Assembly (NCBI RefSeq): GCF_964355755.1
Contig: NC_092678.1
Span: 23,912,365-23,976,364, forward strand
Direction of reading: 5' to 3'
Length of the DNA: 64,000 nucleotides
Origin: Antedon mediterranea
Lineage: Eukaryota > Echinodermata > Crinoidea > Comatulida > Antedonidae
Shown here: positions 6,508 through 64,000 of the stretch, piece after piece
Layout: each line of letters begins with the position of its first letter
Position numbering within the stretch: the stretch's first letter is position 1
Notes under the pieces: generated by a model
Database searches by the model: none
The model's input: only the letters and a program-made list of their open reading frames with translations
What the model was told of the DNA's origin: nothing
Made by a program: the position numbers and the translations under genes

Positions 6508-7354
6508 GATGGGCAATAATATCTGTACCGATAAGATAAGTCGTATTTGTTTGGTAGAGTTTATGCTCAATGTGAATTTGATGTTAAAAATAGGCCTACT
6601 GTAATAAATGAGAAGCACCAGACTCTATAGCATTTTAAAATAAAATATGGCATGATTACATTTTTCATAAACACTCGATCGGACGTATCCCAAAATAATT
6701 GTAATGTTGTGAGCGATTCTACATTATGGCATATAATTGCGTACTTTCGCCGTGGAAAAATTAAATATATTATTAATTATTATATTATATATTTCGTTTA
6801 CTATTGGTTCCTTTTTTGATTATTATTATTTCAATATACTTGCATTGTCATCAAGTACGAGATAGGCGCATTCAAACGATGATATATCAACAATCTCTGC
6901 ACGCAAACTATGTATATCTAAGTGTATTAATGACGTTAGACTGTAAGAACAAGAATGTACTTATTCACGCATAAAAAACACAAAATCATTAACATCTAAA
7001 AGGTTTCTATGGCAACGTCAAGCGATCTTTTCAAAGCCGCTATTGTCTTCAGTGGTGTACAACGTCAGTGTGATTGAGATAGTGAAATGTATTTACAAAA
7101 ATAGCTATATTTATACTGTGTGTTATTTTATGGTTATTTTAGGTGTAAGAGAGGACTGCCCAAATCACATAATAACATGTAGATGTATGTTGTGGACCCT
7201 ACGTACGTTAGTACTCATTAGTACAGCTGATAGGCCTACTGTAAGTATAACCACTTTGTATAATGGTAATAAATAGTGCATAGTACTGTATACGTTAATG
7301 AGTTTACTGCAAGTGCGTTAGGAAGTCACTGATGATTGATGGAGGTTAGTATAA

Positions 7355-7935
7355 GGTTGATAATGATAATGATAATGGTGATAGTGACAACCATAGTGGT
7401 GATGATGATGATTATAACAAGATGATGTTAACAATGATGTTGATATGTGAATATGATGATGGTAATAAGAGGAATATTATGATAAAGATTAATGATGATG
7501 ATAATGATGATGGTGATGGTGACAACCATAGTGGTGATGATGATGATTATAACAAGATGATGATAACAATGATGTTGATATGTGAATATGATGATGGTAA
7601 TAAGAGGAATATTATGATAAAGATTAATGATGATGATAATGATGATGAGGGTGATAATGCTGATCGTAATGATGATGAGGGTAATAATGATGAAGGTGAT
7701 GATGATGATGATGATGGTAATGATGATGAGGGTGATAATGATGATGAGGGTGATGATAATAATGGTAATGATGATGAGGGTGATGATGATAATGATGATA
7801 ATGATTGTAATGATGATGAGGGTGATGATGGTAATGATGATGATGAGGGTAATGATGATGGTAATGATAATGGTGATGATGATGATGGTGATTAATGATG
7901 TTGATGGTGATGATGATATGGTAATGATGACAGCT
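7355..7935 (+). repeat. GAT-rich microsatellite with a nested ~135-bp duplication
   Basis: Long runs of GATGAT with GGT and AAT variants fill this stretch. A block of about 135 bp beginning GTGACAACCATAG occurs twice, at 7384 and 7519. The Asp-rich, Met-rich and His-rich open frames across it in three readings are by-products of the triplet repeat, not genes. Confidence 0.9.
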
Positions 7936-8287: not shown

Positions 8288-10425
8288 ATGGGAAATATAT
8301 GTAATAAAACATTGGAGAAAATTGAGTATCTAGGAATCAGCCAAGAAGATGGGCCTGAGACAGAATGGACAAGACAGAATATGACGTTTAAACAAAACCC
8401 TATGTACCGGCTGGTGTACTTCAGTGGTAAAGGAACGCTAGTGGCAAAAGCCAATAAACATGGAGCGACTGGGAAGAAGATGAAGAAATACATAAAGCAG
8501 AAGATACAGGAGTATCTATACAGAGATGGTGATGGCAAAGAATTGACCAAACTTGAATATGCAAAATATATGTTTGAAAATAATTATTTAGCTGTAAAGA
8601 AGGTAAGATTATTTTTTAAATTCACTTCATTTATTATTTGTGAAACAATTTAATGTAATAATGTTTAATGTAAATGTTCTATTTAAACACATCTCCCTGA
8701 TTAAACATATAACTGTCCTTCAACATTAAAAAGATGCAGTTGGTCACACTTTTGGTGTTTTAATTTTTAATGAATAAATTAATTAGGAATAATTGTTAAT
8801 GTACCAATACACTTTTTCATTCAAAACTATTAAAATCTTCTTATAGGCAGATCCAGGTCCATAAAAAATGTCAATGCAAAAGATAGGACATAAGTTCTTA
8901 TTTCATAATCCTGGATCCGCAACCGCTTCTACTATTATCATCTTATAAATACTATTATTTTTCTATTTTAATAATTAAATGCAAAATCATTGTTATATCT
9001 TTGTAAAACAGGTTAACAAAGTCCAAATGTCATCAGAAGAGTTGATAAGAAATCTGGAACGTCATGAAACAATAGTTAGCTTTGATAAATTTGAGCAACA
9101 TCAAGTTTGCTGGGATCTCAACAGACGAGGTGAAGTTGGAGAAACAATTCTACATTTGTGTTTTCTCAACAACACAGAACATCACAGAGCATTGGCGCAC
9201 ACAATCATGGAATGTTACCCACAAATGGCCCTGGACATTTATGAAGGACCTGAATATTATGGTATTTAATTTAATATTCTTCAATAATAAATAATATTCT
9301 ATAGAATTAAATCTTCTATAGAATAAAATAGTTGATGAATTATTTAATATAGTATGTTCCTCTATATAAATACCATTTAGTACATTATTTCTGCAGTATG
9401 CACGCATATCATCATCATATCATTATCAATATATTTATCAATATCATTAGCATCATCATAATAATTAATATTATCATTGGTATCACAAACCTCAATTTAT
9501 TTTCACTATTACAGGAGAAGGTATGCTGCATATGGCTATTATCAACAATGATATTGAATCAGTCAACTTGCTTATTCACACATACTTCGTTCCCATCAAC
9601 CAACGTGCGACAGGAAGATTCTTCTGCCCAAAAGACCTCAAAGACAAAGCAATGGTGGAGAAGAATCTAAAAACGAGTAAATTTGAAGGGGAGACGTATT
9701 TTGGCGAGTATCCACTTGCATTTGCAGCTAGTGTTGGTAGCACAGAGATTTACGATATTATCCTGAACGCAAGTGTTTCTGGGAAATCCAGCGGAGAAGT
9801 TGATCCAAATGATCAGGATAATTTTGGCAATACTGTTCTTCACATGATTGTTATTCACAACCAAGTGGTAAGCAGGTTATATATCATTGTAGTTAATTAT
9901 TGTATGTGATGAGTTTTTGAATGTGATGGTCATTATATTTATCATTGTTAGTACCATCATCATCTTTATTACCAGTATCATCATCATCATCTTTATTAAC
10001 AGTATCATCATCATCATTAACAGTATCATCATCATCATTAACAGTATCATTATCATCATCTTTATTAACAGTATCATCATCATCATCTTTATTAACAGTA
10101 TCATCATCATCATCATCTTTATTAACAGTTCCATCATCATCATCTTTATTAACAGTATCATTATCATCATCTTTATTAACAGTATCATTATCATCATCAT
10201 CTTTATTAACAGTATCATCATCATAATCTTCATTAACAGTATCATCGTCATCATCATCTTTAGTAACAGTATCATCATCTTTATTAACAGTATCATTATC
10301 ATCATCTTTATTAACAGTATTATCATCATCATCTTTATTAACAGTATCATTATCTTTATTAACAGTACGATCATCTTTAGTAAAGTATGTTCATCATCAT
10401 CATCATCTTTATTAACATTAACATT

Positions 10426-10470
<45 letters not shown>

Positions 10471-13400
10471 TTATTAACAGTATCATCATCATCATCATCA
10501 TCATCATCTTTATTAACAGTATCATAATCTTTATTAAAGTATGTTCATCATCATCATCTTTATTAACAGTATCATCATCATCTTTATTAACAGTATTATC
10601 ATCATCTTTATTAGCAGTATCATCAGTCATCAGCATCATTTATATCATCATCAGTGGTTTAACATACTGTAGGGGAAATAGACCCCTGGTTTAATATCTT
10701 TTTACTGAGCCCTGCTCATAGATGATACGCCACTGATCATCATCTTCGTTCTAATCATAACCATTGTCATCATTATCCACATCATCTATCATTGTCATAA
10801 TCATAATTGTTATCATTTTCTATCATAATCATCTTTCTTCATTCATTTCATTATTTCACAGCATATGTTCAATTACGTAGCTAGCCACAATAAGATGCCT
10901 GCCAATTATGAAATAAGAAACAAAGCGGGCCTTACACCAATGGAGCTGTCCTTTCAGTTAGGCCGTAGCCAATTGTTTTCTAACCTGCTAGACCTTGCAA
11001 GCGTACCACAGTGGTCTTTTGGAAATATTACCTATGCTGCTTACCCGCTTTCGTTAATTGATACGATTGGGAAAAATGGAGAAACAAGTGAGTATCTTAT
11101 TGAATGCTTATCCCTAATACTCACCTTTCGTAATCCATACTACGTCTAATTATTGAAAAATACTTTTCTGAACACAAACATCTTGATAATATTATGATTA
11201 TTTCATATGAGGTTTAATTCATTTAATTTTTTTCTTTATTTCCAGATGAAAATTCAGCTCTCCGGATTATTGTTCGAGGAGAAACACAGGAACATCTTGA
11301 AATGTTGGATGGGGAAATTATCAACACACTACTGATGGAAAAATGGAAGACATACGCACGGGTTAGTTAGACATATGCACGGGTTAGTTAGACATATGCA
11401 CGGGTTAGTTAGACATATGCACGGGTTAGTTAGACATATGCACGGGTTAGCTAGACATAAGCAAGGGTTAGTTAGACATATGCACGGGTTAGCTAGACAT
11501 GCACGGTTTAGGAGCTATCTTATTTTATAATACTTTCATTGTTTGTTGAGACTATACTAAATGTTATGTGTTCCTTTGATGACTAAATTGTACTGATGTA
11601 GTTATAAAGGAAGAATAGGGATGCAGTTGTCAAAAAGTAATTCTGCTGCGTATAGTTGCTTCATGCGTTGTTAAAAGCGAAGGCTTGCATGTCAGTGAAT
11701 TTAATCATTCTAAAGATTGGTATTAATTATTGGAATGTAATTGTAAATAGTGTTTTTTATAATACTATAGTACCAAATTTGTATATTAATAGTTAATGGT
11801 CGCTTGTGTTTTACCTTACATGTTATTTTTTTTTGTCTCATAAGTAATGATTTATATTTTCATTTCAGAACAAATTCTATTTCAAGTTTGTTTGGGCGTT
11901 GCTGCATTTATGTCTTCTTTCAATTGCTGTGTATCTACGTCCAAAAGGAGACCTCATGTCGTCAGACCCTGATGGGGGCTTAGCAAGATTCAATATATGC
12001 ATGGTAATTATATTCTCAACACTTTCTATTAAACAGTAGAACACCTACAGGCACACTTTCAGTACCCAACAAAGTATCTGCTATAGTATTAAAACATTTA
12101 ATACCCCTTATTAGTGTTTCAATTGAAAGTCTCTCCTTTTTTTCATAACATCCAACATTGAGCAACTCGCCAATTACAAGATGGCCAGATATTTTTATAA
12201 TTTATCGTTCTTAAAAACTAAATCCCATTGAAAGCTTAGGGAATTGAGTTGAAAGAGTTGTGAGTAAGGTACAACCCTGGCCCTGTAGGTCAGGATTGAA
12301 CACCGGCCTTTGGGATTGGAAGGCAAGCATCTCAACCATCGGCTACAGCTATCTACCTTTAAGCTCTGTCTTCACTATCAAACGAGTTTGAAAAAAAAGT
12401 ATGATATGCCCAATGATCGTGATATATGCTTACATATGGTAGTGATGATATCATCATGTCTATATATAAAATTTTTTTGTCACATAAAGTTTGATAGTGT
12501 AGACAGAGCTTAATAGAGGTGTGATCTTAAGAGGGTTTTCAGTGTAATAATAAATTGTATTACTGGATTTATGTGTGTGATTATTTATTAGGTTATCATT
12601 GTTGTCTTTAACACAGGTAAGATGGGTAGCAGAGATTTGTGTTTTAATTGGCTGTGTTGCAAAAACAGTTATTGAGATTAGAGAAATTATCTCACGTGGA
12701 TCCATCAAGTCATACCTCAAGAGTCTGGTAAGATTGTATAATAACTATACTAGGTCTAGTAGAAAGACATGGTAAAGAAATAAACCAATTAAGATAATAT
12801 ATTCTGATTGGTAGCCTGTTTAATTTGGTAATTGATTTATGTAATAGTAGTAATTCATTCATTCAATCTTTTATTTCTTAATCTCTGGTCCATAGAAAAT
12901 AAAATTACGTAAATTAATCAATTTAAAAGAAAACTGTACTCAACTCAATGATGTACAAATAGTATTTACATTTTTATAAATTTTTTCCATTTTTAATTAA
13001 TATTTTCTCTATCTTTCAGTTTTCTTCTTTCCTCTGTTTATTTTTATTTTTTCTGATTTTCATTAAACCAATGAATTATATTTTTGTTTTCAGTATATGA
13101 TGCCAGCAAAGTCAGCGTTTTTAATATCCATCATCATGCTCTACCTCTGCGTACCATTTAGATTGTGTCGCCTAAAAAATGTAGAAGAAACATTTCTTTC
13201 AATACTTCTTCCATTTTCCTGGTGTTATATATTATTCTTTTATAGGTGAGTCAAAATTTGACAATTTAATTGTTTTCTTGAAAGAATTTCATTTAGCTTC
13301 GATTTTGTATAGATGACAAATTTCGTTTTTGTAAAAGCACAAGTTAACGGAGTGCAAGGATACCTTAAGCCTGAAAGAAAATGCATATGCAGTAAATTTA

Positions 13401-39348: not shown

Positions 39349-42024
39349 TTACCTAGAAAAACAAAAACAAATTATGTGACATTAAAATGGCATATTCAAC
39401 AAAAACATTTAATCATTTACAATAAATACAAAACATAAACAGATAAGTTATTCTAATTAATGACTACAAAACATATTACTCAATAGGATCATAATGTATT
39501 TGCACAAGCTTATACCTAAACAAATAGGCTTAAAAGAATAGAAGTGTTTACCTTCCTCATCCACCACCTGCTGGAGGCGGTGCACTTGGCCCTGACTGTC
39601 TTCCTCCAAATCCTCCCATCCTTCTGCGTGGACCTCTAGGAGGTGGGCCTGGTGGTCTAAAAAGTAGAAAATTAAGTATGTGAGTACTGTAGATAGATAC
39701 AGTACTGGCCATTTTTCAAGGCATTTTATTCTCATGATGAAGAGATAAAATTTACATAATATACAAATAATGAATGTTTATGAGTGCAATGGTACAAATA
39801 ATGGCACGAGGTGAATGATGAAAGGTTATATCAACGAGGCAAAGCCGAGTTGATATAACCTTTCATCATTCACCAAGTGCCATTATTTGTACCATTACAC
39901 GAATACAAAACATTCATTATTTGTTTTATATAACATCTAAATAAAAAAAAAAAAGAAAAAAAAAAAGTACTATTTAACGATCGTTGAATAGTGCGTACTA
40001 TTGCACGCCATGTGACCCACATTCGTCCAATCAAATGACAGGAATTTATTTAGGTGTTATATAATATATAATATACGTTGTACAATAGCACTGATTAATG
40101 ATGACAATGACGTTATGTTGTAACAAATTTGGTGTCAAAAGGTTTCGTTCATTATTCAGATATTCAAACACATTTAAGAATACTTTTGAAGAAATTGGTG
40201 GAATTTAATAATTTAAACCCATTCCTTTTAGACGACTAAACTGACAGTCAAAACACCAGACCACTGAGATTGCACAGATGACTAGATGCAAGGAAGTAGC
40301 AGGTACTTTGCTAGACAAAGTTGGTGAACAAAGTTAATTACAAAATTAAATTAGATTACAACTTACCCACGTCCACTATTACTGACTCTATAATCTGAAG
40401 TGTATCCAGTTCCTTTACTTGTTAAACCAGGCTGCAATACAAAACAGGTATTATTATTACTGTACACTACACACGATAGCCGTTCAGCAGACTGGCACGC
40501 TAGCTATTCAGCAGACTGGCTCTAGCCATTCGGCAAACTGGCACGATAGATATTCGGCAGACTGGCACGCTAGCTATTCAGCAGACTGGCTCTAGCCATT
40601 CGGCAGACTGGCACGATAGATATTCAGCAGACTGGCTCTAGCCATTCGGCAGACTGGCACGATAGATATTCAGCAGACTGGCTCTAGCCATTCGGCAGAC
40701 TGGCACGATAGATATTCAGCAGACTGGCTCTAGCCATTCGGCAGACTGGCACGATAGATATTCAGCAGACTGGCATGCTAGCTATTTGGCAGACCGGCAC
40801 GCTAACTTTTCGGTAGACTGGACCGTGAGTGAGGCGCCGGCTGATTAGGACCTACATTTTCACTCGGTAGCAATTTAATTTATGTTTTTAATTACGTCTG
40901 AACAAAACAATATAAAACTCAGCTTTGTCATGTTGTCATACCATTTAAACAGTTTATATTTTATCATTTTTTAATTTGGCTAAAAAATGTGGAAATATTT
41001 GCCTTAGTCCACACAGTGTTTAAAAAAAATAATAATATGATTAGAAAACAGAAAACAAATATATATTGAATGAAAATACTTACAGAAAACATAGTACGAA
41101 AGCTGCGAAAAAAAAAAAAGAGAATGAAAACATATAGCGCAATAATCTATCAGTATCCTACAGCAATAACTCTTCTTTTTTTGTCATATATTATTTTATC
41201 TAATACCTAAATAATTGTCTGTTATTTGATTGGACGATTGTGGGTCACATGGCGTTCAATAGACGGTACAGTAGGCATTTGTGCTATGGTCTTCAGAAAT
41301 AATTTAATTCAGTGAAAGCTGAAAGATTTTATTTTCAATCGACTTCGCTTTGTGAAAATATAACTGTTCATTTTTCACCTCATGAAATTATTGGTACCAT
41401 CACACTCATAAACATTCATTATTTGTATAATAGTTACTTACAATAATGAAAAAAAGTTGACAATTCCCCAAAATAGTTCTGGAATGAATGAAAGTCTCCA
41501 TGGTGACTTTGCGTCCACAACATTGCCTAGAAAAAAGTCATATAGAAGTTGTTAATGTTATGCAAATTAACAGTGCCAGTGGATATGCAAATGTAGACAT
41601 GGTGAGCGAACAGGAGACCGAAGAAGGCGGGCAGTGGTAAGCCGACTAAATTATATAAATATAGCTAATTTTGAATAGGAATTAGGCATACCTAACCAAA
41701 ATATATTGTTTTTCTTTATTAAAATAAGAACAAAAGAATGAAACAACATAGGGACGAAACGACTCTAAGGAACACAATAATAAAAGACGGTGCAATCATG
41801 TCCGGTTGCATACTAGAATTTCCATCGCTTCAGCAAAGTATAATTTTGGCCTAGCTTATTATTACATTAACAAACAATATACATAACTTTACTTATTTTA
41901 TAATGCAAATATGACTTTTATACACCATTATTCTAACAGGAAACTGCATTGGAAGACATAAATAAACAATAAAATTCACATAATATTCGATTTAATTGTG
42001 CTTACCTCCACTCACGTACGACAT
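39349..42024 (-). CDS. SELENOK: Selenoprotein K, complete, UGA-encoded selenocysteine, 98 aa
   Basis: Coding exons on the minus strand are 42024-42006, 41526-41442, 41102-41084, 40431-40367, 39656-39552 and 39352-39349. They total 297 nt in frame with GT-AG joints, if one UGA is read as selenocysteine. The start MSYVSGGNVVDAKSPWRLS matches the family N-terminus, which is followed by the single membrane helix (FWGIVNFFSLFF). A Gly/Pro/Arg-rich cytosolic tail (GPPGPPPRGPRRRMGGFGG) ends GGG-U-GR. The Sec codon is TGA at 39559-39557. The last exon supplies only the final base of the Arg codon plus TAA. SELENOK is a small ER membrane protein; in vertebrates it binds p97/VCP and Derlins in ER-associated degradation and partners DHHC6 in palmitoylation. 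Length is close to the roughly 94 residues of vertebrate members. An annotation that treats TGA as a stop would lose only three residues and mislabel the protein. Confidence 0.95.
39757..40085 (+). mobile_element. Foldback MITE in SELENOK intron 4, copy 1
   Basis: An inner hairpin with arms of about 75 bp centres near 39843: GAATGATGAAAGGTTATATC meets its inverse. The remaining right part contains CATGTGACCCAC and ends near TAGGTGTTATATAATATA. Termini and internal blocks match an inverted copy at about 41165-41432. Confidence 0.7.
40490..40835 (+). repeat. 46-bp minisatellite in SELENOK intron 3
   Basis: The unit consists of two half-units of about 23 bp (ATTCAGCAGACTGGCTCTAG and ATTCGGCAGACTGGCACGAT). 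It repeats about seven times with a period of 46, visible at 40621 and 40667. Confidence 0.9.
41165..41432 (-). mobile_element. Foldback MITE in SELENOK intron 2, copy 2 (opposite orientation)
   Basis: It shares ACAAATAATGAATGTTTATG, GAGGTGAA and the GTGGGTCACATGG block with the element at 39757-40085, but in the reverse direction. The ends are AT-rich. Confidence 0.65.
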
Positions 42025-46240: not shown

Positions 46241-46645
46241 GAGACCACAATAAAACTCGTGGAACTGTTACAATCTGTTTGGTAGGCAAGTACACCAGTT
46301 ACGTAGCCAAGACTAAGATACTATTTATTTGATACTGTCTTGGAGAAACTCGTGGAAATGTTCACAATCTGGAATTGGTAGGCAAGTACACCAGTTATGT
46401 AGCCAAGACTGCAATGCTATTTATTTGATGTTGTCTTGGAGACCACAATAAAACTCAAGGTACTGGGACCATCTAGAATTGGCAGGCAAGTACACCAGTT
46501 ATGTAGCCAAGACTGCAATACTATTTGTTGATGCTGTCTTGGAGACCACAAGAAAACTCGTGGTACTGGGAAAATCTAGAATTGGTATGCAATGATGTTC
46601 ACCAGTTATAGCCAAGACTAAAATACTATTTATCTGATAACATGT
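46240..46645 (-). repeat. ~115-125-bp tandem repeat covering the 3' end of the SLC18-like gene
   Basis: About four diverged units share GGCAAGTACACCAGTTATGT, AGCCAAGACT and CTATTTATTTGAT...TGTCTTGGAGA. The unit nearest the gene includes its last codons and stop. AATAAA on the minus strand (TTTATT on plus, for example 46324-46329 and 46420-46425) occurs in the outer units. Confidence 0.85.
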
Positions 46646-49131: not shown

Positions 49132-52100
49132 CTAAGATGCCTTCAGTGGATTTTCAGAAGCCCAACTGTGAACAGGTATATTGCGAGGCTTATCAACATT
49201 TCTAACATTAGCTGACCTCCATCTTGATTGACCTCCTGTTGGTGAGATGGGGGAGATTGTTTGTTGGAATTGTCGTTCTCTGTCCAATTTACGTTCTTGT
49301 TGTTTGTTTTTAATCCAATGACTGGCTTGTTTTGTCATTGACTGATTCAGTTGTTTATTCTGTAACAATAGAAAAGTATTAATCAATTTGAACCATCATG
49401 AAAGCTTAAGTGGTCTAATGATAGAATGTCTGCATAGGAAGCAGAAGTTTCTGGGTTCTAATCAATCTCAATTTGGGGTGCCTTTTTCTCATTCTCATAC
49501 TACTGTAGCCTATCTGTTTATAAATTAATAGGACAGGAAGCAATCATTGTAATGTGTAGGCACAGAGCAAAAACATACATTTTTAATGCATTATTGTTGT
49601 GATGTTATACTAAGGCTGTATTTCCAATTAGCACCTTTAATTATTAACTAGACATGCTAATAACGTAAGATTTGCGTTACACACACATTTCCAGAAGGTT
49701 GTAAAGTCAAGAAAATCTCAACGTTTCAGTTTCATGCTGAAACCAGCTTCTGTAGTAATGCTAGGCTGGATCTAAACACATGATGTACCACAAACCTGAC
49801 TTTACCAGTGTTTATTTGACATGCAAACCTTTAAACAATATTGAACAGAATAATAGGGATGTTTACCTGCTGTTGTTGCTTGTGTAGTTTCTTTTGTAAT
49901 GCTTCTCTATCACTGTAGCACACAGAAAGATGTTTCTAAGCAAAAACAAAAACATATTTATATAGTTTGAATACTTATATTATGTTCCTTTACTACAACA
50001 TGCAAGAACATAGCCTGCAGGGCGAGAACCTGCAATTTCTAAATTAAGAATTACTAGGAGGTTTACTCGGGTAGTGAAAAGAATTGTAGTAGGATTTGAA
50101 CCCAGGACCCAAATACTGGTAAGCAAGCATGTATAACTCAGCTTCTAACCTATGATCCTTAAAACTCTGCATTTAAATCATTTTAAAAAAGAAATATGGA
50201 AATAGAATGGGAAAAACTACTTGTACAGAGTACGTAATGTTAACTTCAATAACTTTGAAATCATAATGCACAAAGTTTTAAGAATTGTAAATAAGATTTT
50301 GTTTTTATACCTTGTGATGTTGAGCATCAATAAATGACTCATGTGTTCTTGTTTTCATTATCTTGTTTTCTTCTTTTAATTTTCTTAATTCTTCTTTCAG
50401 ACACTTGTTCTCCTCAACCAAACCCTATAAATACCAATATTCAAGTTAATTAAAAATTTAAAATAAAATAACATAAGTTAAAGGAGAGGGGTTTAAAGAT
50501 ATATGACTGAGCAATGACAGCCATTTCTCAATTCAGATTGTAAAAATATACACACTTAGGTGAACTAAAAGAACCAACTTGAAGAGTAAAATGCACTCCT
50601 AATTGTTGTTAATTGCTATTGGAGAAATTGATTTCAATAAACTTACCAAATATTTTACATCAATCTCTTGCGGTTTTGGAATGGTGGTAGGTGATTTTGG
50701 AAGACTGAAAAAAAAAGAACATATCCATAAGAAAATAAACTTCAGGACGTGTAACTGTAATATGCTATTTAGGCCTTATTATTCCTTACTAATATATTTT
50801 GTATTGTGTTAGGTTCTCTTGACTTGGTTCCCTCCGGGTTCTTTCCCTCAATATCTTAGAAGATAGAACTAGACTAATAACTAGTAAAATGTCTTGTTTT
50901 TACCTAGTTGTTTGGTTTGTTTCACGGTCAAGCTTCATTTCTTCGTAAAGTGCTTCAAAGTGAACAGCAGTGTCAAAGGTTATCTGCAATTCTCTTTCAA
51001 GATCTTCAATTCTTTTTTGAGCTGTGACATAAAATAAATCATTATTCTGTAACTAAAATATCAATGCCTTTGAGGAGTGCAATTTACATAAAACTTAAAT
51101 TTGGTAAACTTCTACACACTAAAATAGAAAAAGCACACCTGAATGTGTTAGGAGTGAAATTTGTAGCACACCTCCAACTTTCAAAAGATAAAGCTTAATA
51201 ATAGAAAGCAGCCATACTCAGTTTTTTTTTAGCATGGCATTGGTTTTTATAAAGTAGATTTACCCTTTATTATCCTATGATCAAATGCTTGTGACAGCTT
51301 ATGCGTTGTCCGCCTTGCAAGTTCTATGTCTTTAATCAGTCTACCATTTGTTTCATGTAGCATTCTTGATGCATTTTCACATTCTTCAATTATAAAAGAG
51401 TCAGATGATAGACTTCTGTAGAAAGAACGTACATTAAATTGTTTAAATGTAACAATGTTGTGCTCTACATGTATGTTGTGTTGGGTGAAAAGCCACGATA
51501 TTAACTGAAATAATAGTACAAATAGAGATGGACAGTATGCTGTAAATACGTATTTAAAGTGGATTATCTGTGGCCAAAAACTAAAAAACTGGTTTCTAAA
51601 TTTCAAAACCATCAACAGAATCTCAGTAATGTATATTATTCAACAGATTTTAATTGACAAACCTTTGGTTTCTTTGTACAGGCACATCTCTGTTAAAATG
51701 TTTCTTTTTTTCTACATTTCCAGAATTCCCATCTTTCATCTTCACCGCTTCTTCAATTTTTTGTTCCTTTTTCCCTTCACTTTCATTCCTACTTTCAATA
51801 ATTTTTCTTTCCTCTTTATCATCTTCTTTGGCCGATGTTTGTTCTGATTCTTTAACATTTTGGTCAGTCTCTTGGTCAGTGACCATTTGTGTCTCTTGGT
51901 CAGTGACCATTTGTGTTTCTCTGTCAGTGACCAATTTTGACTCTTGGTCAGTCACCATTTCTGTCTCTCGAACAGTGACTTTTAGTTTTTCCCTTATATT
52001 ATCTGTTTTTTTACTTGGTACCAACAACGCATTTGTTTCATTTTCTCTGAAAAAAAAGACACCAAATTAAGTGGTAATTATAAACTGTGTACAATGTTTA

Positions 52101-52913
52101 CAATGGTGAGTACTGCTATTCATTTATTTGTTGGACTACTTACATTTGTTGATGATCTTGTGGCTTGATTTTTTCCAGACTGTCTGACTGGCTGTTTGGT
52201 GTTGGACTCTTTGGTTGAGTGTTCGATATCTCACTATTGTTTGATGTTGGACTCTTTAGTTGGTTCTCAGATATTTTTGGATGACTTTCTTGAAGCTTGA
52301 CATTTGTTTGCGAGTTGTTTTGTTGAATATCTGTGTCTGAATTATGTTTGAATTGCTCATGGTCTGATGTTGATTTTTCCCATTTAAGATTGTTTAATTT
52401 CAGAGTTTGCAGATTGTCCACATTAGTAGACTCAAGGTTTTCTTGTTGTTGAGGTGTATACTGTTTATGAGGTACTGCCTCATCATCTTGTTGATCTGGT
52501 TGCAGTTTGTTTACCTGGTTGCTGATATCTAGTTGCAGATTGCTGACCTGGTTGGTATCCACTTGCAGATTGCTGACTTCTTTACTGGTATTTAGTTGCA
52601 GATTGCTGACCTGGTTGCTAATATCTGGTGGCGAATTGTTGGCATTCAGTTGCTGATCGCTGACCTGGTTGGTATTCAGTTGCAGATTGCTGACCTCTTT
52701 GCTGATATCTGGTTGCGGATTGCTGACCTGGTTTGTATTCAGTTGCAGATTGCTGACCTCTTTGCTGGTATCTGGTTGTGGATTGTTGACCTCTTTGCTG
52801 GTATCTGGTTGCAGATTGCTGATATCTGGTTGGTTACTGAATTCAGTATCATTAGCCTCATCAGTGCCCTTGGCATTGATATCAACATTATTGTCATTAA
52901 CTGAAGGATCCAT
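49132..52913 (-). CDS. Coiled-coil protein of unknown role, complete, 630 aa
   Basis: Eight coding exons on minus: 52913-52144, 52046-51663, 51415-51264, 51021-50904, 50704-50647, 50424-50311, 49935-49867 and 49359-49132, total 1893 nt in frame. The start is the ATG at 52913 (MDPSVNDNN); a TGA lies in frame upstream in the same exon, which has an acceptor at about 52949. Exon 1 encodes a low-complexity Asn/Gln/Ser-rich region with a repeat of about 12 residues (KEVSNLQLNTNQ). Exon 2 encodes Thr/Asp/Gln/Glu repeats (VTDQETQM) and a Lys/Glu-rich stretch. Exons 3-7 encode heptad-like helices (ARRTTHKLSQAFDHRI, AQKRIEDLERELQITFD, EENKCLKEELRKLKEENK), and the tail is basic. I do not recognise the family. 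It has no membrane segment or enzyme motif. A structural or scaffold role is only a guess. Confidence 0.85.
49395..49490 (+). mobile_element. tRNA-derived SINE relic
   Basis: TGGTCTAATGATAG (from 49411) resembles box A, and GGGTTCTAATC (49453-49463) resembles box B at tRNA-like spacing. It lies in the last intron of the coiled-coil gene. Confidence 0.5.
50080..50165 (-). mobile_element. tRNA-derived SINE relic
   Basis: On the minus strand GGGTTCAAATCC (50103-50092) is a near-perfect box B, preceded by a tRNA-like half beginning near 50155. It is intronic in the coiled-coil gene. Confidence 0.5.
51865..51970 (-). repeat. Coding minisatellite encoding VTDQETQM repeats
   Basis: Units of about 30 bp containing CTCTTGGTCAGTGACCAT (plus strand) occur in exon 2 of the coiled-coil gene. 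They stay in frame. Confidence 0.85.
52505..52835 (-). repeat. Coding minisatellite encoding SNLQLNTNQV-type repeats
   Basis: Units built from GATTGCTGACCT and GGTATTCAGTTGCA or GATATCTGGTTGC (plus strand) repeat about ten times. Unit lengths are multiples of three, which keeps the frame in exon 1 of the coiled-coil gene. Confidence 0.85.
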
Positions 52914-54157: not shown

Positions 54158-57789
<3,632 letters not shown>

Positions 57790-58889: not shown

Positions 58890-61800
58890 TCATCTTTCTG
58901 CCTCCTCTGTATTTTCTTTATTTTCATCTTCTCGTCCTTGTCTTTCAGCCTCCTGCAAAAATTCAATTTGTTTAATCTTCATTCAGAACTTTATTAATAC
59001 GAAGGACAAAGATAAAAAATCTTTTTTTTTTAAAAGGCTAAAAACAAAACAAGAACATAGTTAGTGGAGCTGACATTTGGTGGTTAATGTGTTTGCTTCT
59101 GACCTAGTGCCAAGGTTGTAAATCATAACTCTTTCAACTTCACTCCCTACACCACAAAAATGATAAATTATAGTCTATCCAACCTGTAAATTGGCGTGAA
59201 TGTGTATGAATTAAATAAAATAAAAAAATAGTTTAAAAAGATAAAATAAAATCGAATGAACAAAACAAAGGTAACTTACGATTTTCAAAAAGTCAAACAG
59301 TTTTTGAGGATCAGATCCAGATGCTATGTCAATGATGTCTGTTGGAACACTATACTGGCTGTATGGGTTTGGTTTTACACCTTCTTGATGTGTAACATAG
59401 CGAAATATATCTTCCTACAAGAGAATAATTTTTTGTGAAAGCCACAAATATTAAACACTCACTCAAACTCAACAAATTAAACATTCACTCAACTTAATGG
59501 TAAAGTAAAGACTGTACTTATGTAAATGATGATGACAGTAAAGACAATAATACAATAATATTTTTCGGAAAAAAACTCTTTCTTTGATGGTGTTCGTGTG
59601 ACGAGAGTCAGGTGTCTGTCACATGCAAATGAATCAAGTCGCCGGTGGTCAAGTGGACGAATCAGAATGGAGCGTGGTGGTGCGCGGTATTTTGGAGAGC
59701 TGTGCTGGGTGTGGTAGACAAAGAAGGACTCGCTCATGAGACGGGACAAGTCGGAGGCGCTTGAAGTGAACGGTGTTCGAGACTACTGGAAGCGAGGCAG
59801 GACGATAAGAATGGGGAAGTTGTGATGTGTACGGATGGCTAGGCAAACCAACCACTCGGTATCATACGTATCTATAGTTGTGTTGTTATGTATTTTGTGC
59901 ATCGTGAAAGGAAATAAATGGAGCTCGTGCTCCTTGCATAATACTCTGAGTGTAACACTCACTCAAACTTTTAAAAGTCATGATAAAGAAAAGATTGTAC
60001 TTATGTAAACAATGATGACTGTGACAATAATAAATAATGAAGACAGTTATACAATGCTGTTTTTTGGGAAACTCTTTCTTTGATGGTATTTGAATTCAGA
60101 GTCACCTCACCTGCATGTTACCTGGTTGCCGGTTCCTTAGTTCTTCCCAAGTAAACAGTAAACTATCGCAAACTTCACCAAATGGATTGAAGTCAATCAG
60201 CAGATAATTATTCTGAGATAAATATAAATCATAAAATCATATTAAATTAAAAAAATAAACAATAGTTTACAATACTGTAAGCCAGTCAAGAATGTCTTGG
60301 TTAAAAGACTGACCTGTTTTAGTAATGTGACATGGAAGTCATATAACAAATTATTGAAAAAAAAACTTACTGTGGCTTTCCTATAAACATCAAAGACATC
60401 TGCAAGATTAACATAATAAAGAGCAACTAATGAAATATGAAAAAATGGAAACTAAAGCATGTGAGCAACTAGATTGCAGTTAACCACAATGCATACACAA
60501 TTCAATTAAATTCAACTGATAAAAAATGTTAAACCAACAATAATAAATGTCTTACAATTTTGAAGATTACATTGTGCTGTTATGTGTCTGGAGTGAAATT
60601 GTTGGATTTCACGTTGTAGTCTAGCAGCAATGTTGTGAAGTTCTGGGAAGTAGTTTGTGAAATCTCTTTGTGATATACCTTTAAGACAAAATTATGACAT
60701 CATTTCCATTAAACGATTATTAAATAAATGATTTTAATTTTAAAACTGTATCAACACATTGTGCTTGGTTTTTTTGTCTTTAAAAATAAGTTTAAATTTA
60801 ATTGAAATTTATAGGCAGGAAGGTTTTCTACTTAAAAAAGTTAAATACACTTACCAACAATTGCTCCTTGTTTTACAAACACCCTGAACTCCATGGACTG
60901 GGCTAAACTGTACCATTTTCTTAAAACTAACTGAAAAACATAGAAAAGTAAATGTATATAAAGAATTATAAACATTTAAAATAAAAATTTTAAAAATCGA
61001 CTAAAAGATAATACTAAATTACCTCATATTGCACAGAATCAGTGTGAGAATCATTGTCATGGCAACAATCAAATCTACCAAAAAAGAAAAAACTTGTTTG
61101 TCATTGAAGTATAGTTCATACTAAGTATGTCTGGTGCTGGCAAAAATTGTAGAAAGGAAGGATTGTGGTTTTTCTTTTAACTTACGGTCTTGTTAGATCA
61201 TGTGTGATGAAATCAGAGCTTTTCAACAGAAGTAGAATTTCATTTAAGCTTTTACATTTCAAAGTATTACCAAATGCAATCCATGAGGCGTCCTAAACAT
61301 AAAAGATAAACATACATTTTTTTAATCACACTGATGTAGGTGAGCTTAAATATTTCAGATAACTAGACTAAAATAATACATCTAGACCAGTAAATTATTA
61401 GTAATAAAATAAGTAGATGCTATAAATGCTAAATTTTAAAAAATGTGGAAAAAAACAGGTTTTAGCTGAAACTGACTTGGAAAATGTCAGAGTGAGAGAA
61501 TCTAAAATTTGCTATTTAGTTTAATTTAAACTTAAAAGTTTAAATTAAATTTTAAATTATATATTTAGGCAAATTGCCAAGGATAACCATAAATGAATTC
61601 ATTCACTATCCTTCTTAAAGTTGGCAATTCTGTTCACAAACAGATACACAAGATGCTCTACATAAACAAAGTCTTATTACAAGCCTTTGGGAGTGGAGTT
61701 GTAATTTGTCATTACAAAAAATCCTGACATATGAAAGGACTTGAAACCAGAATTGGTAGCCAAGCATCATAACCACCAAGCCACAACTCCACTCATTAAT

Positions 61801-64000
61801 TAATCATTAAGTTTCCATGGTGATATCTACATATAATTTAAAGGTAATCCATGCATACCCTTGGAGCACTCCAGTTCAGTTTAATCATTAAGATTCCATG
61901 GTGATATCTACATATAATTTAAAGGTAATCCATGCATACCCTTGGAGCACTCCAGTTCAGTTTAATCATTAAGATTCCATGGTGATATCTACATATAATT
62001 TAAAGGTAATCCATGCATACCCTTGGAGCATTCCAGTTCAGTTTAATCATTAAGATTCCATGGTGATATCTACATATAATTTAAAGGTAATCCATGCATA
62101 CCCTTGGAGCACTCCAGTTCAGTTTAATCATTAAGATTCCATGGTGATATCTACATATAATTTAAAGGTAATCCATGCATACCCTTGGAGCACTCCAGTT
62201 CAGTGATATGTACATATAATTTAAAGGTAATACATGCATACCCTTGGAGCACTCCAGTTCAGTGATATGTACATATAATTTAAAGGTAATCCATGCATAC
62301 CCTTGGAGCACTCCAGTTCAGTGATATCTACATATAATTTAAAGGTAATCCATGCATACCCTTGGAGCACTCCAGTTCAGTGATATCTACATATAATTTA
62401 AAGGTAATCCATGCATACCCTTGGAGCACTCCAGTTCAGTTTAATCATTAAGATTCCATGGTGATATCTACATATAATTTAAAGGTAATCCATGCATACC
62501 CTTGGAGCACTCCAGTTCAGTTTAATCATTAAGATTCCATGGTGATATCTACATATAATTTAAAGGTAATCCATGCATACCCTTGGAGCACTCCAGTTCA
62601 GTTTAATCATTAAGATTCCATGGTGATATCTACATATAATTTAAAGGTAATCCAAGCATACCCTTGGAGCACTCCAGTTTAGTTTAATCATTAAGATTCC
62701 ATGGTGATATGTACATATAATTTAAAGGTAATCCATGCATACCCTTGGAGCACTCCAGTTCAGTTTAATCATTAAGATTCCATGGTGATATGTACATATA
62801 ATTTAAAGGTAATCCATGCATACCCTTGGAGCACTCCAGTTCAGTTTAATCATTAAGATTCCATGGTGATATCTACATATAATTTAAAGGTAATCCATGC
62901 ATACCCTTGGAGCACTCCAGTTCAGTTTAATCATTAAGATTCCATGGTGATATCTACATATATAATTTAAAGGTAATCCATGCATACCCTTGGAGCACTC
63001 CAGTTCAGTGATATGTACATATAATTTAAAGGTAATCCATGCATACCCTTGGAGCACTCCAGTTCAGTTTGATCATTAAGATTCCATGGTGATATCTACA
63101 TATAATTTAAAGGTAATCCATGCATACCCTTGGAGCACTCCAGTTCAGTTTAGGAAACACACATCCATCAAGATCTTCTATTGCTTCTTTCACCAATGCT
63201 TCAAATTCCACAAACTGAGGAGGCTGTTCAAAAATAAATGTATTGATTGTAATAATTGGATAACAGTGAATAAAGATTCTTTCTTGTTTTGTTTTTTGCT
63301 CTTATTTTCCTTGACTGTCTAGATTTAGGTCTAGGTACCTCATGTAAATTTGGTTGATTTAAAGAGATTTATGTATGAGTAAGGTAACTCTAACAAATGA
63401 CAATCATGAGGTTATAATGAATTCATTATTGACAATGTTCTGATACATGATTGTCATTTAAAGATACCATACTCTTTTTCTATTTGCAATAAATCAGTGA
63501 ATCTTTTGCTTCATACACATATACTGTGTAATTAAGTAATATAGATACCGGAGTTTCTTCAGACTCATCTGTCCAATTATTATCTTCCTGCAAGATACAA
63601 ACAGGTATTATTGTATTAGAAATGAAAACGTCATTTTTACAATTACAATACTGTACAATAAGTATCACTGTCAGTAGATTGTCACAAACTACTGTTACAT
63701 GTAATCTCTGATACTCCTGCTTCGTGATGAATTAATTGTCAAAATAAATTCATTTTAAAAGTTGATCGATTTATGAATATAACTGTATAAAAAGCAAATT
63801 AATGTACTTTACCTCATCTTCATCATTAGTTCTGTTGGAAAATAAAATGGAAAAAAACATTAAGCTTGGAAAATTTACGGCATTTTAATTTTTAATTTGT
63901 TTATTATTTTCAAGCAATTTAAAAAAGGTACACATTTTTGTTTAAAGAAACTCACCGGTTACTTTGACCCTCATCTTCTGGCAAAACAATTCCATCAGCC
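58890..64000 (-). CDS. CDC123: Cell division cycle protein 123 homologue, 5' end missing
   Basis: Minus-strand exons: 64000-63956 (partial), 63831-63813, 63587-63549, 63223-63128, 61292-61186, 61074-61023, 60930-60855, 60678-60556, 60398-60370, 60212-60111, 59414-59280 and 58952-58890. All joints are GT-AG and in frame. Family landmarks in order: acidic segment ([11 protein letters not shown]), [86 protein letters not shown] then [15 protein letters not shown], and [17 protein letters not shown]...LFDFLKI. CDC123 is an ATP-grasp-fold chaperone that assembles the eIF2 heterotrimer (binding eIF2 gamma) and so controls translation initiation; it is cytosolic. The D-x-NPFGE metal/ATP-binding motif is intact. 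The tail ends in a short acidic segment, as in vertebrates. The N-terminal residues lie beyond the right edge. Confidence 0.96.
59065..59225 (+). mobile_element. tRNA-derived SINE with A-rich tail
   Basis: TGGTGGTTAATG (59078-59089) resembles box A and AGGTTGTAAATC (59113-59124) box B. The block CATAACTCTTTCAACTTCAC is shared in inverted form with the relic at 12240-12352. The 3' end is A-rich (AATAAAATAAAAAAAT). Confidence 0.55.
59590..59965. mobile_element. GC-richer block, possible solo-LTR-like insertion
   Basis: About 370 bp stands out from the AT-rich CDC123 intron. It begins near TGTGACGAGAGTC and ends near GAGTGTAACA, with AATAAA about 50 bp before the end, as in an LTR. The intron sequence on its left (GTACTTATGTAAA... 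to CTCTTTCTTTGATGGT) recurs on its right at 59998-60090. I see no clean target duplication and no ORF of note. Confidence 0.35.
61700..61800 (-). mobile_element. tRNA-derived SINE relic
   Basis: The minus strand has TGGCTTGGTGG (61783-61773, box A) and GGTTTCAAGTCC (61748-61737, box B) at tRNA-like spacing. It lies beside the CDC123 minisatellite. Confidence 0.6.
61825..63152 (-). repeat. 81-bp minisatellite that has copied the CDC123 exon end and splice donor
   Basis: About 18 units. On the minus strand each starts with 24 bp identical or nearly so to the exon end at 63151-63128 (codons for KLNWSAPR), followed by the donor GTATGC and about 50 bp of intron. The full unit is 81 bp. A shorter form of about 59-60 bp, lacking the part with CATTAAGATTCCATGG, occurs at 62205-62400 and 63010-63065. 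Homogeneity is high, which suggests recent expansion. Confidence 0.95.

Follow-up and report, generated by a model that had tools for sequence, protein, structure and literature searches.

The 64,000-nucleotide window analysed here, from the crinoid Antedon mediterranea, holds an intron in which a minisatellite repeats the end of the preceding exon together with its 5' splice site, and the question is how such an array could arise and persist, and whether it affects splicing. By homology, the gene that carries it is CDC123. Two joined exons match Pfam D123 (PF07065) with E=4.8e-29 and the PDB entry 'Cell division cycle protein 123 homolog' with E=3.4e-24, the splice junction being aligned without a gap, which bears out the gene assignment made in an earlier note on this DNA. 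Four CDC123-family exons lie in order in the window, and a search of the 354-Mb genome gave no match to the family beyond this locus. CDC123 is an essential gene and encodes a translation factor.

The gene lies on the minus strand. The coding exon before the array (63128..63223; 32 codons, 96 bases) ends in 24 bases, AAACTGAACTGGAGTGCTCCAAGG, which encode KLNWSAPR and at the same time begin the first repeat copy. Protein continuity across the junction places the authentic 5' splice site, GTATGC, at 63122..63127 (last exonic base 63128, +1 at 63127), and exon continuity defines an intron of 1,835 bp (61293..63127). The next exon, located by protein match, occupies 61184..61292 and begins with DASWIAFG at 61292. 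As read from the sequence, the minisatellite spans 61802..63151 (1,350 bp, running from 63151 to 61802; the base T at 63152 is ambiguous) and makes up 72% of the intron, while the acceptor at 61293 lies about 510 bp past the array in unique sequence. The 18 copies in the array fall into three lengths: 81 bp (twelve copies), 59 bp (five) and 83 bp (one). An 81-bp unit comprises 24 exonic and 57 intronic bases, the 59-bp copies are without 22 bp of this length, and any copy placed after a 59-bp unit opens with TCAC, not AAAC. The string GCTCCAAGG followed directly by GTATGC occurs exactly 18 times, as the authentic exon end and 17 copies within the intron, and the donor hexamer is intact in 18 of 18. 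The 17 further donors (61853..63046) have their +1 positions at 63046, 62987, 62904, 62823, 62742, 62661, 62580, 62499, 62418, 62359, 62300, 62241, 62182, 62101, 62020, 61939 and 61858. The roughly 18-fold copying of exon end and donor described in the earlier note is thus an exact count, and the array itself stands where the note put it (61825-63152), except that the array continues for about 23 bases past 61825, to 61802. A whole-assembly search (354 Mb) found no second place for the repeat unit. Outside the array, a dispersed repeat of about 120 bp, recognized in a genome repeat search, adjoins its downstream end (61680..61800, minus strand); it has inverted ends, AGTGGAGTTGT and ACAACTCCACT, and at least 40 scored copies of 1,704 candidates on the large contigs.

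Eighteen near-identical units of 81 or 59 bp cannot be a product of chance. Tandem arrays are error-prone in assembly, and a single haplotype was at hand, so that a repeat expanded or misassembled by the assembler has to be considered. The copies, though, differ by independent substitutions, by a 2-bp insertion and by two length classes in mixed order, and simple assembler duplication does not create such mixed differences. Furthermore, independent arrays of the same architecture occur elsewhere in the genome. The probability of an assembly artefact is therefore close to negligible.

The earlier note knew of no described class of minisatellite at exon-intron joints, but such a class had already been named. 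In amphioxus, tandem repeats that span exon-intron boundaries in Adh3 and the globin genes BflGb6 and BflGb9 are termed 'mirages'; BflGb6 haplotypes carry 6 and 3 units, Adh3 is somatically unstable, and regular splicing is reported as undisturbed (PMC3087553). As in mirages, a minisatellite-like unit here spans an exon-intron boundary, the AG/GT signals are kept in the copies, and evolution is concerted; donor-side and acceptor-side cases occur both in amphioxus and in the present genome. The CDC123 unit joins the end of a coding exon to the adjoining intron (24 + 57 bases), its splice signal is kept in 18/18 copies, and unit turnover is evident in shared variants (59/81, TAG/TAC) that occur in mixed combinations. 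On its sequence, then, the array fits the anatomical definition of a mirage, although it has 18 units, and arrays in other genes here have more, whereas BflGb6 has few (6 and 3).

Other known systems resemble the CDC123 array in part. The minisatellite with multiple splice donors in human IFI6/G1P3 (6-16), credited to Turri et al. 1995 in PMC4526556 and PMC2572611, likewise supplies repeated donors at an exon-intron joint. Isoforms arise there from two downstream repeat units that do serve as donors (PMC4526556), whereas use of a downstream donor in CDC123 would lead to a stop after VCMDYL and not to a protein isoform. Introns gained through tandemly duplicated AGGT segments (Rogers 1989; ATP2A1, 24-bp repeats of fission yeast, potato RdRp; PMC4974935) likewise involve a tandem duplication that carries splice signals, including a duplicate crossing an intron-exon boundary. 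In that scheme both splice sites of the new intron derive from the duplicated segment; in CDC123 the acceptor at 61293 is in non-repeated sequence about 510 bp past the array, so that the structure does not require a new intron. Finally, human segmental duplications contain variable internal tandem repeats at exon-intron boundaries (PMC2812944). These, too, are boundary minisatellites that alter gene structure, but they belong to recent primate paralogues, in which they elongate exons or form introns.

Reading through the first CDC123 donor adds VCMDYL and then a stop, that is, a stop after six codons, in agreement with the in-frame stop that the earlier note had predicted for any downstream donor. 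Use of any of these donors would therefore yield a truncated product and a probable target of nonsense-mediated decay (NMD). The computed pairing with U1 is -5.1 kcal/mol and equal in all copies, whereas the other arrays examined range from -10.6 to -12.4 kcal/mol and a consensus donor reaches -14.4. By this measure the CDC123 donors are weak, and a degree of leakage into products of the NMD type is plausible. As the 18 donors are identical, the first has no advantage by strength alone, and whatever picks it is thus something other than donor strength.

These properties raise the possibility that the array is a splicing dampener, in which the donors compete, some transcripts acquire VCMDYL and a stop and are degraded by NMD, and array length tunes CDC123 output. 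Donors that are all identical and weak, with a stop six codons past any downstream one, are consistent with such a device, as is the use of downstream repeat units as donors in human IFI6 transcripts (PMC4526556). The donors show no corresponding sign of selection, however. In four arrays, 2 of 24 columns in donor hexamers are variable versus 27 of 193 elsewhere (p=0.35), and as three of the four were found through a donor pattern, which biases them to intact donors, even this weak difference is generous. The extra donors in these four arrays show no sign of being kept or purged. An essential translation factor is, moreover, an unlikely target for tolerated leakage. The regular splice in amphioxus mirages is also reported to be undisturbed (PMC3087553). 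A dampening role is therefore unlikely. In-frame micro-exons of 27 nt between TAG and the donor in the 59-bp copies, possible in principle, were also considered, and nothing was found for them.

The genome-wide search that the earlier note had proposed was carried out in part, by pattern searches of the 354-Mb genome for regularly spaced occurrences of three donor motifs, with the flanks then read and arrays of acceptor motifs included; it yielded further cases. Donor-side exon-end arrays backed by protein homology are present in six genes, namely CDC123 and homologues of TDP2, DHX8, MAGUK-p55, dynein and ABCC, and an acceptor-side array in one, DDX54. In the TDP2 homologue (C1:41208045-41208944), about 29 copies of a 31-bp unit repeat an exon end GGDTNLRDSE followed by GTAAGT, and the next exon, VKSIGGLPG, is present (PDB TDP2, E=1.3e-13). 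The DHX8 homologue (C1:17776228-17777072) has about 23 copies of a 37-bp unit, with ITVMQIHLTEPP before GTAAGT and GDILMFLTGQEE in the next exon (E=9.6e-53). The array of the axonemal dynein heavy chain (C1:19363306 to beyond 19368600) has a 68-bp unit in which GLCKWVRAMDIYDKVAK precedes GTAAGT, the next exon beginning with VVGPKQEKL (PF12777, E=5.3e-19); over its length of more than 5 kb, upwards of 75 donors follow one another, and its first copy lies beyond the sequence covered. As in CDC123, many copies in the TDP2, DHX8 and dynein arrays keep the splice signal. The ABCC transporter array (C9:48226 to about 48500) repeats a 58-bp unit with FQWVHYIWSIPYQ before GTAAGT (E=5.1e-5, from the exon before the array only), and one of its copies has lost the GT. 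In the PDZ exon of the MAGUK-p55 homologue (C2:40519520-40520035; PDZ E=6.3e-12), a 36-bp unit carries ILQGGMIDKQ before GTAAGG, with LLNVGDVIKEING in the next exon. Read-through of this array is open in frame, with GKVLQGGMIDKQ repeated, so that the frame would survive whichever donor is chosen, with 12-residue units being added to the PDZ domain. DDX54 supplies the acceptor-side case: a short array of a 39-bp unit, at C1:41235906, precedes one of its exons, at the joint between TTTTTCAG and GRVARAGRSGTAFSMVAPDE (E=9.6e-14). Since TDP2, DHX8, MAGUK-p55, dynein, ABCC and DDX54 share the same architecture, exon-edge arrays are a recurring class in this genome.

Further arrays are less clearly assigned. 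Those at C2:16022404 (41 bp) and C4:35201091 (55 bp) are exon-like by open reading frame only, with no homology; that at C2:40443402 (54 bp) likewise has no homology, is open in frame as far as it was read, and may be a coding repeat. Two nearby arrays, C6:30480007-30481557 and C6:30503553-30504409, share one 53-bp unit in which FSIIVMLDAVKT stands before CAG and GTAAGT, and are probably exon-end arrays in duplicated genes; the reading of flanks left out this pair and C4:25561904. Upstream sequence was not coding, and an exon end was rejected, for the donor-motif arrays at C1:40902567, C1:24690375, C1:37700693, C1:416891, C1:17483664, C2:32644842, C3:782103, C3:11081273, C3:14092020, C3:18962394 and C1:22714692. 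Acceptor-motif arrays were rejected at C7:22225010, C10:23340597, C4:32338209, C9:8512326 and C11:18300417, as was that at C1:23438675, which resembles either a simple repeat or a coding repeat in frame.

Seven homology-backed cases in a single genome, six at donors and one at an acceptor, could suggest that exon-intron joints are hot spots that nucleate minisatellites, for example via R-loops or transcription-linked breaks. This was examined with the motif CAGGTAAGT, which occurs 3,315 times in the genome, and its reversed control, which occurs 2,032 times. Counting as distinct arrays those in which a motif occurs at least three times at a spacing of 28-58 bases, there are 7 with CAGGTAAGT and 4 with the reversed motif, or 0.21% versus 0.20% per motif. 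The rates do not differ (7/3315 versus 4/2032, odds ratio 1.07, Fisher p=1), in a sample of 11 arrays in which a modest enrichment would be missed. Raw counts of places (580 versus 1722 for the reversed motif) were kept out of the test because long arrays dominate them. About 39% of the CAGGTAAGT sites are above the reversed-motif background and are presumably real donors, and about 2.7 of the 7 arrays would therefore lie on real donors by chance. Of the 7, DHX8 and ABCC are exon ends backed by homology, C4:35201091 counts as an exon end through its open frame behind an acceptor, and the two arrays of the C6 pair are likely exon ends, judging from the repeated peptide alone. While these assignments can be read in favour of nucleation, the chance expectation and the equal array rates per motif argue against it; this small null test finds nothing beyond by-catch. 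The nucleation at exon-intron joints proposed in the earlier note is thus unsupported, and we regard it as highly improbable.

We therefore favour, at a probability of about three in four, the reading that the CDC123 array is a mirage-type minisatellite, a tolerated by-catch that is neither a regulatory device nor nucleated by splice sites. Its left edge is CCTAAACTG, its right edge GATTAATTAATG, and its internal junctions GATTAAACTG, from which we infer that TAA was common to the two sequences joined in the first duplication. This event would have been a short germ-line tandem duplication that, with 3 bp of microhomology at its breakpoints, took in the intron's 5' splice site by chance. Growth to 18 copies would have followed by slippage or unequal exchange, with subsequent homogenization. 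Along the array, the two lengths (59/81) and the two forms of the TAG/TAC variant are found in all four pairings, a pattern that speaks for copies having exchanged with or converted one another and against a single linear series of duplications. The array would persist because use of the first donor still gives the normal mRNA, the extra copies all being intronic. Its source would be the abundant formation of minisatellites in this genome, with random births of which some straddle a donor. Neutral by-catch is thus the most likely account, in which splicing from the first donor would keep the array out of sight of selection; this use of the first donor, the neutrality and the mechanism of growth are its proposed elements.

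The window has a GC content of about 33%, and the genome has eleven large contigs, which would seem unlike amphioxus. Micro- and minisatellites are found in the window at 7351-7930, 9955-10653, 40472-40821, 46253-46632, 51867-52822 and 55435-56210, one of them with 19 copies of a 40-bp unit at 97%, and their number marks the genome as minisatellite-rich. A satellite of about 20 kb, with nested periods of 172 bp and about 498 bp, occupies 17709-37996. Elsewhere, clusters of single-exon protein-kinase genes were noted at C9:20883170-20974873, C8:6419308-6432965 and C10:20231407-20335267.

The CDC123 array is therefore of a described but little-known kind, which the present analysis extends to six or more genes within a single genome. 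A farther-reaching view, which we consider very doubtful, is that exon-edge minisatellites are a widespread and fast-turning source of variation in splice-site copy number, so that a unit that is a multiple of three, as in MAGUK-p55, could insert variable numbers of 12-residue units, and genes such as CDC123 could be tuned via NMD. Splice-aware aligners, according to the account in PMC10632439, make false junctions between repeats, and gene models and RNA-seq junctions at such loci therefore need care. Every such array amounts to a naturally occurring test of splice-site choice, with many identical donors in cis and the exon, intron and acceptor held constant. Their recurrence in housekeeping genes, on both donor and acceptor sides and within one chromosome-scale genome, suggests that boundary-spanning minisatellites are not just an oddity of a few amphioxus genes.
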